The notes under the pieces were generated by a model. The model was not told the origin of the DNA, ran no database searches, and was given only the letters and a program-made list of their open reading frames with translations. The position numbers and the translations under genes are program-made. DNA of 64,000 nt from a sulfur-oxidizing endosymbiont of Gigantopelta aegis (lineage in GTDB: Bacteria; Pseudomonadota; Gammaproteobacteria; GRL18), in assembly GCF_016097415.1 (NCBI RefSeq), contig NZ_JAEHGE010000001.1, positions 2,839,157 to 2,903,156 on the forward strand, read 5' to 3'. Of the stretch, positions 9,234 to 16,575 are shown piece after piece. Positions within the stretch are counted from its first letter, which is position 1. Each line of letters opens with the position of its first letter.

Positions 9234-10735
9234 TGATGTGTCAACACTTTTCCGGACAGTTTTCTAAATATTTTTTGGCTGTTTCAAGTGATTTTTGTCA
9301 TTTTGTATTTCCTATCATTTTAGTTTCTCATGTTAACTTTAAATAGATGAAGAGAAAGGGCTTTGCCCTCTGGAACGATAGAGCCGTTCCATTCACCCAA
9401 GGTATTTTCACAACGGTAATGATCCTGTTACAATATCTTCACGGCACAGGCTGAGGAGCCGATGGCCGTCAACGGTAATGGGCGGCATTTATGTCGCCTT
9501 TTACCCTCTTCAATCAATCGATTTAAGCTATTTCCTGCTGTATTTCATAATCGATTGGTGACAAATAATCATTAGCCGAATGAAGTCGCTCCCGATTATA
9601 AAATACCTCAATATATTCAAATATTGCCTGCTTTGCTTCTACTCTGGTTTTGAATCGACAATGGTGCGTCAATTCAGTTTTCAAACTATGAAAGAAGCTC
9701 TGATACAGCATTGTCCCAGCAATTTCCTTTGCGGCTCATAGACTGAATTATGTTATGATCCGACAATATTTTTCTATGACTATCAGAGGCATATTGGCTA
9801 CCTCGGTCAGTATGCCAAAGCAATCCATCCATTGGTTTACGCTTCCATATGGCCATCAGTAAGCATCATTGACTAGCGGCTTTCATTCGCTCATCCATCG
9901 ACCAGCCAACAATTTGCCTAGAGAATAAGTCAATGACAACCGCTAAATATAACCAGCCTTCCTTGGTGGCAATATAGGTAATATCACCCACATAGTAGCG
10001 ATCAGGTTGAGAGACAGTAAACTCTCTTCCAGTAAATTTGGAGATATACGCTTATTATGCTTGGAATTAGTCGTCGCTTTAAAGCGTCTCTTCGTTTACA
10101 AAACAAACCGGCTTTTTCATTAATCGACCAATTCTCCGGCGGCTTATATGAACGCCTTTTTCAGCCAGTTTTCTTTTAAGACGACGGGTTCCATAAGTCT
10201 TGCGACTGTCTTCAAACAGTTTTTTAGCTGCTCAGTAAGCGCTTCATTTTCTTTCTCTATCCGTTTTAGGAGAGCTAACCCAATCATAATAGCAACTACG
10301 GAAACATCCATAAAACGGCACAGAATCGTTACCGGGTAATCTTTAGCCTGATCAGTTATCCATGCGTACTTCACAAAGTTTCCCTTGCAAAGTACGCTGT
10401 GGCCTTTTTAATAAATCACGCTCCTGAATCACTTTTGCCAATTCTTTTTCAGACGTTTTACTTCATCATAAATGTGTTCATCACTTCTATTGGCTACCGT
10501 CTTCACCGGTTTGGAATATTTACTGATCCAGGTATGTAGAGTATTTACATTAACACCTAGCTCCCTGGCAGTCTGAGAAACGGATTGATCCGTCTCATTA
10601 GCTAATTTGACAGCTGATTCTTTAAATTCTGATGTATAGCTTTTATTCGGTTTTTGTTTGATCATTCATTTTAGGTCACACTTTTTATCTTTTAGTTATT
10701 TTAAGTTGTGTGTCCGGTTAAGTATAGCCACATTA
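9234..10735 (-). mobile_element. IS3-family element, copy B, nested inside copy A
   Basis: Copy B is a full element in reverse orientation, with its right end at 9234 and its left end at 10735. It is flanked by the 3-bp duplication AAG (9231-9233 and 10736-10738). Removing the element and one AAG restores the copy A sequence exactly. At 1502 bp it is 13 bp shorter than copies C-E, with several small deletions inside orfB (for example near 9695 and 9872). OrfA and orfB remnants are broken in multiple places; the longest pieces are 10429-10669 (OrfA) and 9523-9711 (OrfB C-terminus). Confidence 0.93.
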
Positions 10736-10738
10736 AAG

Positions 10739-11465
10739 CGCTTACTGAGCAGCTAAAAAACTGTTTGAAGACAGTCGCAAGACTTATGGAACCCGTCGTC
10801 TTAAAAGAAAACTGGCTGAAAAAGGCGTTCATATAAGCCGCCGGAGAATTGGTCGATTAATGAAAAAAGCCGGTTTGTTTTGTAAAACGAAGAGACGCTT
10901 TAAAGCGACGACTAATTCCAAGCATAATAAGCGTATATCTCCAAATTTACTGGAAAGAGAGTTTACTGTCTCTCAACCTGATCGCTACTATGTGGGTGAT
11001 ATTACCTATATTGCCACCAAGGAAGGCTGGTTATATTTAGCGGTTGTCATTGACTTATTCTCTAGGCAAATTGTTGGCTGGTCGATGGATGAGCGAATGA
11101 AAGCCAAGCTAGTCAATGATGCTTTACTGATGGCCATATGGAAGCGTAAACCAATGGATGGATTGCTTTGGCATACTGACCGAGGTAGCCAATATGCCTC
11201 TGATAGTCATAGAAAAATATTGTCGGATCATAACATAATTCAGTCTATGAGCCGCAAAGGAAATTGCTGGGACAATGCTGTATCAGAGAGCTTCTTTCAT
11301 AGTTTGAAAACTGAATTGACGCACCATTGTCGATTCAAAACCAGAGTAGAAGCAAAGCAGGCAATATTTGAATATATTGAGGTATTTTATAATCGGGAGC
11401 GACTTCATTCGGCTAATGATTATTTGTCACCAGTCGATTATGAAATACAGCAGGAAATAGCTTAA
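10739..11465 (+). pseudogene. IS3 OrfB transposase, 3' part (copy A)
   Basis: This encodes the catalytic rve (DDE) half of the transposase: [30 protein letters not shown] with the first Asp, [11 protein letters not shown] with the second, and [14 protein letters not shown] with the Glu. The last 201 codons (10860-11465) are open. The 5' part of orfB is separated from it by copy B (it begins at the GTG at 9099). An A-run near 10754 also puts the two halves in different frames, so no functional product is expected. Confidence 0.85.
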
Positions 11466-11754
11466 ATCGATTGATTGAAGAGGGGTAAAGGCGACATAAA
11501 TGCCGCCCATTACCGTTGACGGCCATCGGCTCCTCAGCCTGTGCCGTGAAGATATTGTAACAGGATCATTACCGTTGTGAAAATACCTTGGGTGAATGGA
11601 ACGGCTCTATCGTTCCAGAGGGCAAAGCCCTTTCTCTTCATCTGTTTAAAGTTAACATGAGAAACTAAAATGATAGGAAATACAAAATGACAAAAATCAC
11701 TTGAAACAGCCAAAAAATATTTAGAAAACTGTCCGGAAAAGTGTTGACACATCA

Positions 11755-12357
11755 ATGGGATTGGTTTCAGTGGCACCAAAACCCAATACCAGCAAGCCTT
11801 GCAAAGTAAATAACCTCTATCCATATTTGCTCAAAGGAATTGATATTAATAGGAATAACCAGGTTTGGTGCACAGATATCACGTATTTACGGATGCCACA
11901 TGGATTTGTCTACCTAAGTGCTGTTATGGACTGGAGTAGCCGTTTTGTGCTGTCCTGGGAAGTGTCAACCAGCATGGAAGAAAGCTTTTGTATCAGTAGT
12001 CTGGAAACAGCACTGCGACGATATGGAAAGCCAGAAATCTTCAATACGGATCAAGGTGCTCAATATACTAGCAGAGCATTTACAGGTGTTCTAAAGGCCA
12101 ATGATATAAAAATCAGCATGGACGGCAAAGGCAGAGCAATGGATAACATTATGATTGAACGACTCTGGCGAAGTGTAAAATATGAGGAAATTTACCTCAA
12201 GGATTACCAAAGTATTGATGAGCTAAAGAGCTCATTAAAGGAATATTTTGAGTTTTACAACCATGAACGACCACACAGTACACACGGTGGAAAAACGCCT
12301 GCAGAGATCTATGGCGTGATGAAAGAAGTTGTTCCAGACTTAAAACGGGCAGCATGA
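11755..12357 (+). pseudogene. Second IS3-family transposase OrfB, 5'-truncated
   Basis: About 200 codons of a different IS3-family OrfB begin exactly at the right end of copy A. The rve motifs are present: VWCTDITYLRMPHGFVYLSAVMDW (Asp), FNTDQGAQYTS (Asp) and MIERLWRSVKYEEIY (Glu). The N-terminal half and OrfA are missing, so the element was cut when copy A arrived or by a later deletion. Sequence identity with the OrfB of copies A-F is low, so it is a separate IS lineage. Confidence 0.85.
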
Positions 12358-12388: not shown

Positions 12389-12480
12389 CTTGTCCACATA
12401 TCCACAGGCCAAGCCAGTAGCCCTGAGATATATCGCAAGCGTCTCTGGACTACTGGCAGACCTGTGGATATGTGGATAAG
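12389..12480. repeat. Long imperfect inverted repeat after the truncated IS
   Basis: Arms of about 31 bp (12389-12420 and 12450-12480) face each other across a ~29-bp spacer. Both contain CCACATATCCACAGG or its complement, and one indel separates the arms. The block probably belongs to the end of the truncated IS3-like element. The right arm contains TTATCCACA (minus strand, 12471-12479), identical to the DnaA-box consensus, but as a single site. Confidence 0.6.
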
Positions 12481-13452
12481 ACTAATACTATAAATAACCA
12501 ACAGAATTATATCTTAATATTTGAGAAAGCTGTCTTGACAATGGGGTCCACTGTAGTTTTCTATACCAATGAATTAAAAAATACCTACTATTCTTTCTCA
12601 ATAAAACCCGAAATATCAACCGTTAAAATAGCGTTCAAGCCAAAAACAGAAGAGCCCTCATTGGTTTCCTATAATCCGGGCATGCTTGACTCTGAGCCTA
12701 ATATTTCAAAATCCTATAAATTTAAACCATTAAACAAAGCAATACAAAATGATAATCCGGCCTGGTTAGGAAAAAAGTGGCCTGGAGATAAAACCAATTG
12801 GTCTAATGATTTCCCCTTTTACATCAATGTATTTATTCAGGATGCCAACCAAAAACAATCATCCTCTGAAAATAGAGATGCCGTTTTTTCCATAAAAACC
12901 AATCTAACACCCTTTATTACACAAAATATTACAGCAATAAAGTTATCTTTACTGGAAAGAAATAAAAGCCAACTTGATCAATTTATTGCATTCCATCAAC
13001 AAGCAATGGATGCTAAAACTGAGGGGGATGATAAATTTTATTTAAGTGTTAATAAGGCCTTTAAATTATCCAAAGACCGTCAAGCCAATAAACATAGCAG
13101 TCATTTGCATGGGGAGTTGACGCTCTATTTACCAAAAACATTTAAAAGTCATTTAGAGCCTTATACATCCTTGGGACAAACAATTGATCTAGGGGAACTC
13201 AGTATAAAAAGCATTCGCCTTGATGGCAAACAGATTACCTTTGAGATCAGAGGTGAATTGCAAAAACTGGTGCAATTAAAACTGTATAATAAGGCTGATG
13301 AATTAATATCTGAGGTGTTTGAGTTACAGCATATTGAGAACAACAAAGCACATCTAAGCCTCGCTTATCAGGGCAATATTGATAAATTTAAAGTCGTTAT
13401 GGCGCAAAGTCTGGCCGAAAAGAAATATCCCTTTTCTTTTTCGGACCAGTAA
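12472..13452 (+). CDS. Hypothetical protein, start uncertain
   Basis: The family is not recognised. The frame is open for 326 codons if it starts at the GTG at 12472, which lies inside the IS-end inverted repeat; the first ATG at 12541 (MGSTVVFYTNELKN) is the more likely host start. No signal peptide or membrane segment is evident. The protein is hydrophilic, with a mid-region rich in Lys and Ser, and a C-terminal third that reads like beta structure (IDLGELSIKSIRLDGKQITFEI). The native 5' end may have been lost to the IS next to it. It converges on the YdbL-like gene. Confidence 0.55.
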   Translation: MDKTNTINNQQNYILIFEKAVLTMGSTVVFYTNELKNTYYSFSIKPEISTVKIAFKPKTEEPSLVSYNPGMLDSEPNISKSYKFKPLNKAIQNDNPAWLGKKWPGDKTNWSNDFPFYINVFIQDANQKQSSSENRDAVFSIKTNLTPFITQNITAIKLSLLERNKSQLDQFIAFHQQAMDAKTEGDDKFYLSVNKAFKLSKDRQANKHSSHLHGELTLYLPKTFKSHLEPYTSLGQTIDLGELSIKSIRLDGKQITFEIRGELQKLVQLKLYNKADELISEVFELQHIENNKAHLSLAYQGNIDKFKVVMAQSLAEKKYPFSFSDQ

Positions 13453-13492: not shown

Positions 13493-14191
13493 TTATTTAC
13501 GTTGCCATTGCCCCGATGCATTCTGATACATCCAGCCTGATGCGATCTTATTTATCCAGGTTTTGCTAAAAGTTTTCTGAATATCAGCTTGCCATTCTGG
13601 GTGTCCATTAGCCGTCGCTATTTCCGTATACAATGCCATTCTATCGCTATTCTCAGACTTCACTAATTTTTTTACCGTCGATTTTTGTTTAATGGATAAA
13701 CCTTTTTGACTGACGATGGCAATTAAGCCATTATTCGTAAATCCTACGGCACCAGAATTGTAATAAGCACTCAGTTTTGATTGTCGCTTGCCCATACTTT
13801 TGCGAATAGAATTGATTTTCGGCGTATTAATAGAAATGTTTGCCTGTCCTGCAGCAGATGCCGTAGGAACAAAGAAATCAACAATAGCAACTAAGGCTCT
13901 GGTAGAAAAAGGACGTGCTTGATTAGCGGGATTAAAATTAAGTAAACCTTGACTATTATTAACATCAGTTTCAGAATTTTTCTTCTGCCCATCTACAGGT
14001 CTTACGGATTTTAAAACATCATCAACAATCAACTCAGCCGCTTTTTCTGCGGCCGCCGCAGGAAAATAGATGTTTATCGTGACACAGGATACTGCGGTCA
14101 GGCTAAAGAATAATAGGGCAAATAAGTGATTAAGAGGATAGCTTCGTAAAGTATTTGTTGCTGTTTTCATAGTTTCACCAATACGGGTCAT
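13493..14191 (-). CDS. YdbL-like (DUF1318) protein with YnbE-like lipoprotein N-terminus
   Basis: This 232-residue envelope protein has a signal sequence ending near LTAVSC (a probable lipobox), then VTINIYFPAAAAEKAAELIV, typical of DUF1318 proteins. The C-terminal ~110 residues (NSIRKSMGKRQSKLSAYY to GWMYQNASGQWQRK) resemble E. coli YdbL. The gene lies 95 bp downstream of a YdbH homologue. In E. coli the operon is ydbH-ynbE-ydbL, where YdbH and lipoprotein YnbE form an intermembrane phospholipid bridge and YdbL modulates it. No separate ynbE fits in the gap here, so the lipoprotein-like N-terminus may stand in for YnbE (inference). Confidence 0.75.
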   Translation of the reverse strand: MTRIGETMKTATNTLRSYPLNHLFALLFFSLTAVSCVTINIYFPAAAAEKAAELIVDDVLKSVRPVDGQKKNSETDVNNSQGLLNFNPANQARPFSTRALVAIVDFFVPTASAAGQANISINTPKINSIRKSMGKRQSKLSAYYNSGAVGFTNNGLIAIVSQKGLSIKQKSTVKKLVKSENSDRMALYTEIATANGHPEWQADIQKTFSKTWINKIASGWMYQNASGQWQRK

Positions 14192-14286
14192 GTTAATGTC
14201 TAATGTTTAATGTTTTCGATAGTATTGCATAGTTTTACTGAATCAAAACTGAATTAGTGCTTTGATTCTCAATGAGCAGTCATCAA

Positions 14287-16575
14287 TTACTCAATAGTGG
14301 CCTCATTGGCAAGTTGAATAGCTTTTAGGCGTGATGTTAGAGTTGACCAACTGACCTGCCGTTGAAAGCCCATAACGTCAATTCTGGGAATGCCACCACC
14401 TTTAACAATATAGTAGCTATTTCCCTTTGCTTCAACTCCGGACATCTGACAAACATTGTTTTTTAGTTTACAACTTAAACCGATCTTGTCATAGCGAAAG
14501 GATTCAAAAAAGCTTAAAAAGGTGCGTGACAATAAACCTGAAGCACCACCCAAACTAGAGATATTATCAATGGCTGTCTGACTTATACGATGCCGACTAT
14601 CATCATTTTCAGGTGTTTTGAGGCTCGCATCAAAAGCAACGGGTTCCCAGGCACTGAGCTCAAGATCATGTAAATAACCACCAATACGCCCTTCTATTTG
14701 TCCAAAATTATAGGTTTTTGTCAATGATTCTAGGCTCAGGTTTATTAAATCGATATTGGCAAACAATTGTGCATAATCTTGTAAGGGTTCATCAATTCGC
14801 AAATCTTTTATAATGACAACTCCATCAAAGACTTTAAGCATTAATGCGCCACCTACCGTTAAATATTGTTCATTATAGGTGGTTGATGGAATCACTGCAG
14901 ATAAACTTCCAGCTAATAAGGGCCAGTCATAATGTTCCGACAATAATGCTAATGACACGGGTTTGATCATCCCATCAACGGTTAAAGTCATCCCTTTGCT
15001 ATGAGCTTCCTTATTTTTTTTAGATATGGCTTTATTAGATATGTTTTTTTGAGCAGTCCCTCGATTCTGGTGGGCTAATGAGGGATGAATATGGTCAATT
15101 TCAAGACTATTGATATGTAAGGCACCATCAAAAATAGGAATGTCTGTCCCTTTTAATAAGCTTAGATAGTCATTATGAAATACAAAATCAAATTTTGCTG
15201 CACCTAATGGTAATCCATTGAGTAATAGTTCCTGCCATGATAGATAACTATTCACCGCAGCCTTTGAGGATTTATTATTCCAGTTTAGCTTACCGTTGAG
15301 TGCAACCATTGCCAAGTTTTCATTTAATTCAACTGAAAAATCCCTAAATTTTGTATTCGCTGTTATTTTATTTTTATTGATCCTGAAGTGAGCAGTCAGT
15401 GCTCCTTCAACTTTAATTTCTTCATAGTCAGTACCTGATAAAATATTATTGAGATAATATTGATTAAAGCCAGCGAGATTGATAATCTCTAAAGAACTAT
15501 CCAATTGTTTGAATTGCAGCGGTTTCTTATAATCTAACCAGCCTTTAGCATTAAGCTCGATAATCCCTTTTGAGCCTAAACTTAATTGTGCAACATGAAT
15601 TCGCTGATTATTATAAATCGTAAATCGACTACGCAGTTTTTCTTTACCTGTTAAAGAAACATAGGTGTCACTTTGTAAGATCTCACCCGATAATGCATTA
15701 ACAGACAAGCTCACATCATAGTCAGCCTTTGATGTTTTTTTCTTATTTTGTTTTAAATTGATAGCACTGGAAAAATTCAGGGCTAAATTTTCTGCCATAT
15801 CATCACCATATTGATAATGTAGCTCCGATATTTTTCCTTTAATTTTAAGCACATTTAAAACACTTTCTGAAGATGTGTTATTAAAATATCCATTAGCCTG
15901 GCCGGAAAAGCTTACAATAGCACCTGCCTCTGCTAATTTTTCCGCCATTTCAGATAATTCATATTGTTTTAAATAATCCTGAATCAATGTTTTGAAATAT
16001 TTATAATCCAGATCGATAGCCTTAAATGACGTAGACCACTTATCATTAGTGAGTTTAATTGCCAGTGATAATTCTGACTTAGATAAGTGTAAATTTTCCA
16101 GTGCGAATTCCAGACTATTCTTAGGCTTATCAAAATTGAAGGTAAAATCGGACTCTACTTCTGTCTGATTAATTAAACCTTTGAAGGCAATTTTCCCTTG
16201 CTGGCAGCTAATGAGCATTTCTGACAGCACTAGATCTGGGCATGAAATCGTTAATTGACTAACATTTTGATAGGGCGGAGGTAATTTTAACTGAGAAGAA
16301 TTAATAATGAGTTTTAATGGTGACGATGACAGATCAATTGAAACCATTAATTCATCAAGTTTTAATTGTTGCAAAAATTCAATTTGCTGCTTATTTTGTG
16401 AGTCTGAAAGTAGTTGGGCTAGAGATACTTGCCCAATATTTAATTGTATGTTTTTAATCGAAAAACTACGCAGAGAAAATGATAATGCCGATAAAATGAT
16501 GAGAGTTTGTAATACCCCAATAGCGCTTCGGCGGGAAAAAAAAGAACACTTTACCCTTTGCATGGATTTTAGCAT
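14287..16575 (-). CDS. YdbH-family AsmA-like intermembrane lipid transport protein
   Basis: This is a 762-residue protein with one N-terminal membrane anchor (about residues 18-36, AIGVLQTLIILSALSFSLRS) and a long periplasmic beta-rich region. The C-terminal part carries DYAQLFANIDLINLSLESL, FGQIEGRIGGYLHDLELSAWEPVAFDA and ASGLLSRTFLSFFESFRYDKIGLSCKL, which are characteristic of the YdbH family. E. coli YdbH acts with TamB and YhdP in moving phospholipids to the outer membrane. It is followed co-directionally by the YdbL-like gene and preceded by cysM (36 bp gap). Confidence 0.8.
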   Translation of the reverse strand: MLKSMQRVKCSFFSRRSAIGVLQTLIILSALSFSLRSFSIKNIQLNIGQVSLAQLLSDSQNKQQIEFLQQLKLDELMVSIDLSSSPLKLIINSSQLKLPPPYQNVSQLTISCPDLVLSEMLISCQQGKIAFKGLINQTEVESDFTFNFDKPKNSLEFALENLHLSKSELSLAIKLTNDKWSTSFKAIDLDYKYFKTLIQDYLKQYELSEMAEKLAEAGAIVSFSGQANGYFNNTSSESVLNVLKIKGKISELHYQYGDDMAENLALNFSSAINLKQNKKKTSKADYDVSLSVNALSGEILQSDTYVSLTGKEKLRSRFTIYNNQRIHVAQLSLGSKGIIELNAKGWLDYKKPLQFKQLDSSLEIINLAGFNQYYLNNILSGTDYEEIKVEGALTAHFRINKNKITANTKFRDFSVELNENLAMVALNGKLNWNNKSSKAAVNSYLSWQELLLNGLPLGAAKFDFVFHNDYLSLLKGTDIPIFDGALHINSLEIDHIHPSLAHQNRGTAQKNISNKAISKKNKEAHSKGMTLTVDGMIKPVSLALLSEHYDWPLLAGSLSAVIPSTTYNEQYLTVGGALMLKVFDGVVIIKDLRIDEPLQDYAQLFANIDLINLSLESLTKTYNFGQIEGRIGGYLHDLELSAWEPVAFDASLKTPENDDSRHRISQTAIDNISSLGGASGLLSRTFLSFFESFRYDKIGLSCKLKNNVCQMSGVEAKGNSYYIVKGGGIPRIDVMGFQRQVSWSTLTSRLKAIQLANEATIE

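Follow-up and report, generated by a model that had tools for sequence, protein, structure and literature searches.

A joined lipoprotein–YdbL gene beside a ydbH-like gene: a probable two-gene counterpart of E. coli ydbH-ynbE-ydbL

It is not settled how phospholipids are carried to the outer membrane; one proposed route runs through YdbH together with YnbE. In E. coli, YdbL, the product of a third gene, is proposed to limit the self-assembly of YnbE. YdbH interacts with the lipoprotein YnbE in that species, according to passages of PMC12977461 and PMC11784454. The window studied here (the whole analysed stretch of 64,000 nucleotides) carries, next to a gene for a YdbH-like protein, one gene whose product combines a lipoprotein with a YdbL domain, raising the question of whether two genes stand here for the three of E. 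coli and whether the joined chain stays in one piece. We consider it probable (roughly 60%) that this locus corresponds to E. coli ydbH-ynbE-ydbL reduced to two genes, with a groove protein and a two-module precursor.

Both genes lie on the minus strand, in the order YdbH-like ORF (14287–16575; 762 aa, divergent, long and beta-rich, recognized from the ORF, its homologues and weak YdbH profile similarity), a 95-nt spacer (14192–14286) and the joined lipoprotein–YdbL ORF (13493–14191 with the stop codon; 232 aa). Translation of the latter probably starts at Met8 (14168–14170), invariant in 13 aligned proteins, rather than at the first codon, giving a product of about 225 aa. The layout described in the first-pass annotation, namely the coordinates, the 95-nt gap, the 232-residue length, the lipobox-like N-terminus, VTINIYF, the linker and the YdbL domain, is present in the sequence in full. 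The joined lipoprotein was matched in 24 of 40 genomes searched, including that of the bacterium carrying the window (the host), which together with the conserved layout rules out a chance ORF; the YdbH-like protein was found in 23 of 40. Beyond the end of both genes, several transposase-like ORFs are seen by eye (9523–12357), adjoined by a 326-aa ORF (12472–13452) without a Pfam family.

The joined protein begins with a putative lipoprotein signal peptide (residues 8–35; 14087–14170), recognized by the lipobox ahead of Cys36. Cys36 and the following VTINIYF (residues 37–43; 14063–14086 with the cysteine), the candidate for a strand at the YnbE position, are conserved almost without exception across 66 aligned joined proteins (C 66/66, V, T, N and Y 65/66 each, F 66/66). 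This set leaves out L137, with its parts in different frames, L151, with a variant motif, and L020, with masked letters. A predicted helix follows (residues 45–62, AAAAEKAAELIVDDVLKS; 14006–14059), indicated by its conservation in the alignment and by an AF2 model with a mean pLDDT of 84 for residues 41–50 and 94 for residues 51–60; from residue 65, within the variable linker (residues 63–98; 13898–14005), pLDDT falls below 50. The minimum that the locus shows to be retained of the lipoprotein is one predicted strand plus a helix. The residue following a lipidated cysteine steers lipoprotein sorting toward the outer membrane or not (the +2 rule). Here that residue is V or I in all 66 proteins, which by this rule points to the outer membrane.

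After the linker come the junction segment (residues 99–114, ALVAIVDFFVPTASAA; 13850–13897), an amphipathic run followed by a small-residue motif resembling a signal peptidase I site, and the YdbL domain (residues 115–232; 13496–13849). DUF1318 (PF07027) matches residues 135–232 with E 1.3e-22 and 80.6 bits against a cut-off of 27, and the AF2 model resembles the solved structure of YdbL from E. coli, 28oj (TM 0.82 normalized to the target length; Foldseek E 6.8e-4, probability 1.00). Unlike a separate periplasmic YdbL with its own signal peptide, this domain sits behind the lipoprotein in one chain. An internal start for the YdbL part was considered and rejected as a general explanation: in the window, Met8 and residue 133 enclose a single in-frame ATG, GTG or TTG, the TTG of codon 54 inside the conserved helix, and 14 of the 66 proteins have a linker Met (GTG and TTG uncounted).

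That the chain really consists of two modules is indicated by a family, f163, in which they are encoded apart. At locus L210 (genome G388), the order is a ydbH-like gene, a gene for a 56-aa lipoprotein with CVTINIYFPAAAAEKAAD and a separate YdbL gene with its own signal peptide; the YdbH-like protein matches the window's YdbH-like family with E 1.3e-164. A search of 100 f163 genomes gave 39 matches, and in all 30 loci fetched from these the lipoprotein (CVTINIYF) and YdbL are separate, with a YdbH-like sequence within the locus. This split form (L210, L218–L247) thus shares with the host the CVTINIYFPAAAAEKAAD-type lipoprotein, the YdbL type and the YdbH-like family, and differs in having separate lipoprotein and YdbL genes and a full signal peptide on YdbL.

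A quick tree built from 80 YdbH-like proteins places the split form in a single clade (SH-aLRT 100), with joined forms coming from the same class and from another class. When the tree is rooted on that other class, a single split event would be the shorter account, but the deep forks leave the direction from joined to split unproven. The lone split clade, set among joined forms from two classes, suggests that the joined form and its junction motif are old. A phylum survey found 82 genomes with DUF1318, and 20 loci, mostly with long frames or weak scores, were chosen and fetched: 8 are joined, 1 is split, 7 encode other lipoproteins and 4 are short, counts that yield no frequencies. At L201 and L204–L209, all of another class, other DUF1318 lipoproteins carry CGGPLLEVTLVDERT..., CSNGPLLEV... 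or CATTQPQF..., with no A-x-A junction by eye.

Distribution within the host class, surveyed in an even sample of 276 genomes, sets the joined form apart from the E. coli form. DUF1318 occurs in 76 genomes, YnbE in 27 and the Pfam YdbH family PF11739 in 28 (27 over cut-off); the 27 YnbE genomes are those with PF11739 over cut-off, and 26 of them have DUF1318. The remaining 50 DUF1318 genomes have neither YnbE nor Pfam-YdbH. Our YdbH-like profile (A3) matched strongly in 49 of these 50 and in 0 of the 26 with YnbE; 27 of the 49 supplied rows of the profile and match by construction, the independent count being 22 of 23. Two other genomes of the survey matched it weakly. The joined form and a separate ynbE are therefore mutually exclusive in this survey. 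The lipoprotein motif is in frame with DUF1318 in 47 of 49 fetched loci (the window aside), the other two showing a variant motif in one case and, in L137, the two parts in separate frames. A YdbH-like gene lies at most 4.5 kb upstream in 40 of the 49 and elsewhere in the genome in 8; none was found in G063. At L137 (G257), the lipoprotein and YdbL parts occupy different overlapping frames, and the gene is probably broken by a frame break in the linker. In G078, G198 and G286 the DUF1318 match spans one in-frame stop codon.

A separate ynbE elsewhere in the genome would speak against a joined function; a Pfam search of the whole host genome for ynbE (PF13617), with a positive E. coli control, did not find one. 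The joined protein itself gave no PF13617 match. Likeness of VTINIYF to the YnbE strand, as first proposed, found no backing at profile level: against a YnbE profile of 14 sequences (13 of 26 loci plus E. coli) there was no detectable homology (4 columns, probability 1.3), and direct YnbE homology was rejected at that level. The lipoprotein is nevertheless encoded between a ydbH-type gene and ydbL, as ynbE is. Thus, of the claim that YnbE and YdbL functions are united in one chain, the joining of a lipoprotein at the YnbE position to YdbL is well supported by gene order, the exclusive distribution relative to separate ynbE and the split orthologues, and the part that rested on YnbE homology of VTINIYF is not.

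Strand addition to the YdbH-like protein, as proposed for YnbE, was also modelled, the YdbH-like protein and the lipoprotein being folded as one read-through chain. The model has a mean pLDDT of 65.4 and, at low confidence, shows no strand pairing; VTINIYF falls inside a low-confidence helix, and the C-terminal residues 634–714 of the YdbH-like protein are mostly below 50 pLDDT. The alignment behind it is shallow and contains an 11-residue misfit, the last 11 residues being misplaced to the wrong end in 11 of 13 YdbH rows, so the prediction settles neither side.

It is unlikely, in our estimate, that the lipoprotein end is unrelated to YnbE and a mere anchor for a YdbL-like protein that acts otherwise on the YdbH-like protein. 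Such a role would agree with the shortness of VTINIYF and with the lack of similarity to the YnbE profile. However, VTINIYF plus the helix is the very part conserved in the stand-alone split lipoprotein, whose gene lies between ydbH-like and ydbL genes like E. coli ynbE.

The 762-aa protein gave no Pfam match above cut-off. PF11739 yielded nothing in the whole host genome at E up to 10 and was listed for none of 27 YdbH-like family members at E up to 0.1, and direct membership was rejected on these searches. Against a YdbH profile built from 23 E. coli-type upstream ORFs, in which the L104 row is probably another ORF, the YdbH-like profile scored E 3.5e-8 and probability 95 over 152 columns with 13% identity, or E 7.4e-9 and probability 95.8 over 151 columns without L104, these being pairwise and not database values. 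In addition, L202, from another class, is matched by both the YdbH profile (38 bits, 29 without L104) and the YdbH-like profile (268 bits). The pairwise match and this doubly matched locus suggest that the 762-aa protein is probably a remote YdbH; the initial designation as YdbH may thus hold as a distant relationship but does not as a Pfam-level assignment.

Like members of the AsmA-like family (YhdP, TamB, GspN), the YdbH-like protein is long, beta-rich and presumably of the envelope, and a few members of its family have weak matches to YhdP, DUF748, AsmA or T2SSN. Unlike in that family, the matches of four such proteins lie below Pfam cut-offs, and the best E among the 27 members is 0.0044, to YhdP. 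A PDB sequence search with the YdbH-like protein returned nothing useful. Its predicted structure is long and beta; the best Foldseek match is the LPD-3 complex (E 7.9e-3, probability 0.23), and VIA ranks a fragment of apolipoprotein B first (Z 13.8, rmsd 10.2, 263 aligned), followed by porins and other barrels that say little.

A putative N-terminal signal of the YdbH-like protein (residues 1–39, ...SFS then IKNIQ; 16459–16575) is visible in aligned columns. Of 52 aligned rows, 50 have letters there; 41 of these carry A, S or G at the −1 place and 39 also fit at −3. In the host class the N-terminus thus resembles a cleavable signal more than it does an anchor in the membrane, and the protein may lack an inner-membrane anchor. 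This claim rests on the aligned columns, as an automatic test for cleavable signals, which left out two partial rows, did not separate the types (50/50 versus 19/23). Some relatives from another class, such as L203, have starts that look anchor-like by eye.

Building on the observed modules, their conservation, the link to a YdbH-like gene and the split version elsewhere, we propose the following mechanism. The first gene would supply a long, beta-rich YdbH-like protein, probably forming a groove for phospholipids. The second would supply a precursor made of an outer-membrane lipoprotein (the lipidated cysteine, VTINIYF and a short helix) and the YdbL domain. By analogy with E. coli, VTINIYF may dock where the groove meets the outer membrane, and a chaperone role of the YdbL domain may stop the strand from aggregating. 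After export, with the lipid anchor holding the chain at the membrane, signal peptidase I would cut it at A-x-A. We hold this cut to be a tentative step, falling just short of even odds but slightly ahead of a chain left intact.

It was suggested by the junction. All 66 joined proteins, the window's included, have Ala at the −1 place of the alignment and Ala or Val at −3 (Ala in 63, Val in 3), and the linker around this [AV]-x-A is otherwise variable. Shuffled linkers carried the motif in a mean of 8.1 and a maximum of 16 proteins at distances of 8–12, a range chosen after the alignment was seen; widening the distances to 1–16 raised this to 21.8 on average and 33 at most, still against all 66 real proteins. 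If −3 is restricted to Ala, 64 of the 66 carry the motif. The window protein has one extra residue at the motif, and the putative cut may fall after Ala113 or Ala114. In the AF2 model, A-x-A stands where the disordered linker meets the folded YdbL domain. It also coincides with the place where the signal peptides of split YdbL end: counted back from a common anchor, a fitting Ala is 7–10 residues away in 28 of the 30 split YdbL proteins and 7–14 residues away in joined proteins, the choice of −3 residue being broader in the split ones. This conservation between the modules suggests that they may be cut apart, and speaks against tethering.

The segment preceding the motif is, however, no ordinary signal. 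Its best 11-mer has a mean hydrophobicity of 1.94, against 2.38 for the lipoprotein signals (24-residue stretches each), 2.57 for 21 E. coli-type YdbL proteins (40 residues) and 2.76 for split YdbL (34 residues), and D, N or E occupies alignment position 105, in the junction run, in 56 of 66 joined proteins. A run so weakly hydrophobic argues against a normal signal, and its orientation would be wrong for one, given that the preceding part of the chain has by then been exported. By its residues, the junction appears to retain the cutting part of a signal without its hydrophobic part.

The same polarity favours a chain that stays whole, in which the YdbL chaperone would be kept at the outer membrane, close to the strand, by its flexible linker, and A-x-A would be a structural or membrane-contact motif. 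We regard this alternative as a serious one, if somewhat short of even, and 7 of the 20 fetched phylum-survey loci, whose DUF1318 lipoproteins lack A-x-A there by eye, are in line with it. Against it stand a motif kept in every aligned protein amid a varying linker, its coincidence with a true signal-peptide end in the split family, and the split lipoproteins of 30 loci, which by eye do not keep the junction segment. The tie of YdbL to the outer membrane that the first-pass annotation expected, which presupposes an intact chain, is accordingly doubtful. That A-x-A is a functionless leftover from an earlier gene fusion is quite improbable: the hydrophobic part is indeed degenerate, but the motif is kept in all 66 aligned proteins, recurs by eye in all eight additional joined loci, of which five belong to another class, and appears to be old, like the joined form.

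Carrying the cleavage reading further, we speculate, more loosely than for the cut itself, that the product is a bacterial polyprotein, cut internally into a strand lipoprotein and a soluble chaperone at 1:1 and belonging to a second, anchorless form of the YdbH bridge; the lipid anchor would then stand in for the missing hydrophobic region. Bradyrhizobium FbcH, the precursor of cytochromes b and c1, comprises two envelope proteins and is cut inside by signal peptidase I. Its internal signal is hydrophobic and correctly oriented, whereas the host junction segment is neither. E. coli ydbH-ynbE-ydbL (L049) is alike in the order YdbH-type, lipoprotein, YdbL, in the YdbL fold (28oj) and in a TIN strand near the lipidated cysteine of the lipoprotein; it differs in having two helper genes to the host's one, in YnbE and YdbH Pfam models that do not match the host proteins, and in the host YdbH-like protein showing no evident inner-membrane anchor.

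Each part is of a known kind; their joining in one gene, the orthologues encoded apart and the conservation of the junction are absent from the literature searched (titles and abstract openings), although Kumar, Davis and Ruiz 2024 may mention fusions. No such fusion appears in the passages of PMC8593681, PMC10900882, PMC12977461, PMC11784454 and PMC12802150 that were consulted, and a literature search for signal peptidase I polyproteins found no paper. If the locus is a second form of the YdbH route, it is the commoner one in our sample (50/276 genomes versus 26/276 with YnbE and DUF1318), and the Pfam YdbH and YnbE models miss it. Were the polyprotein reading true, a Pfam-invisible YdbH lipid bridge would be present in about twice as many genomes of the class sample as the E. 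coli form.

A whole-genome search of the host (G000) did not find TamB (PF04357); the genome encodes a 1337-aa YhdP ORF and another ORF, of 722 aa, that narrowly passes the YhdP cut-off. The host may rely more on its YdbH-like protein than E. coli does on YdbH. The YdbH-like family has two invariant cysteines, C112 and C124, and the consensus shows by eye a second cysteine pair near the C-terminus; these pairs are possibly disulphides.
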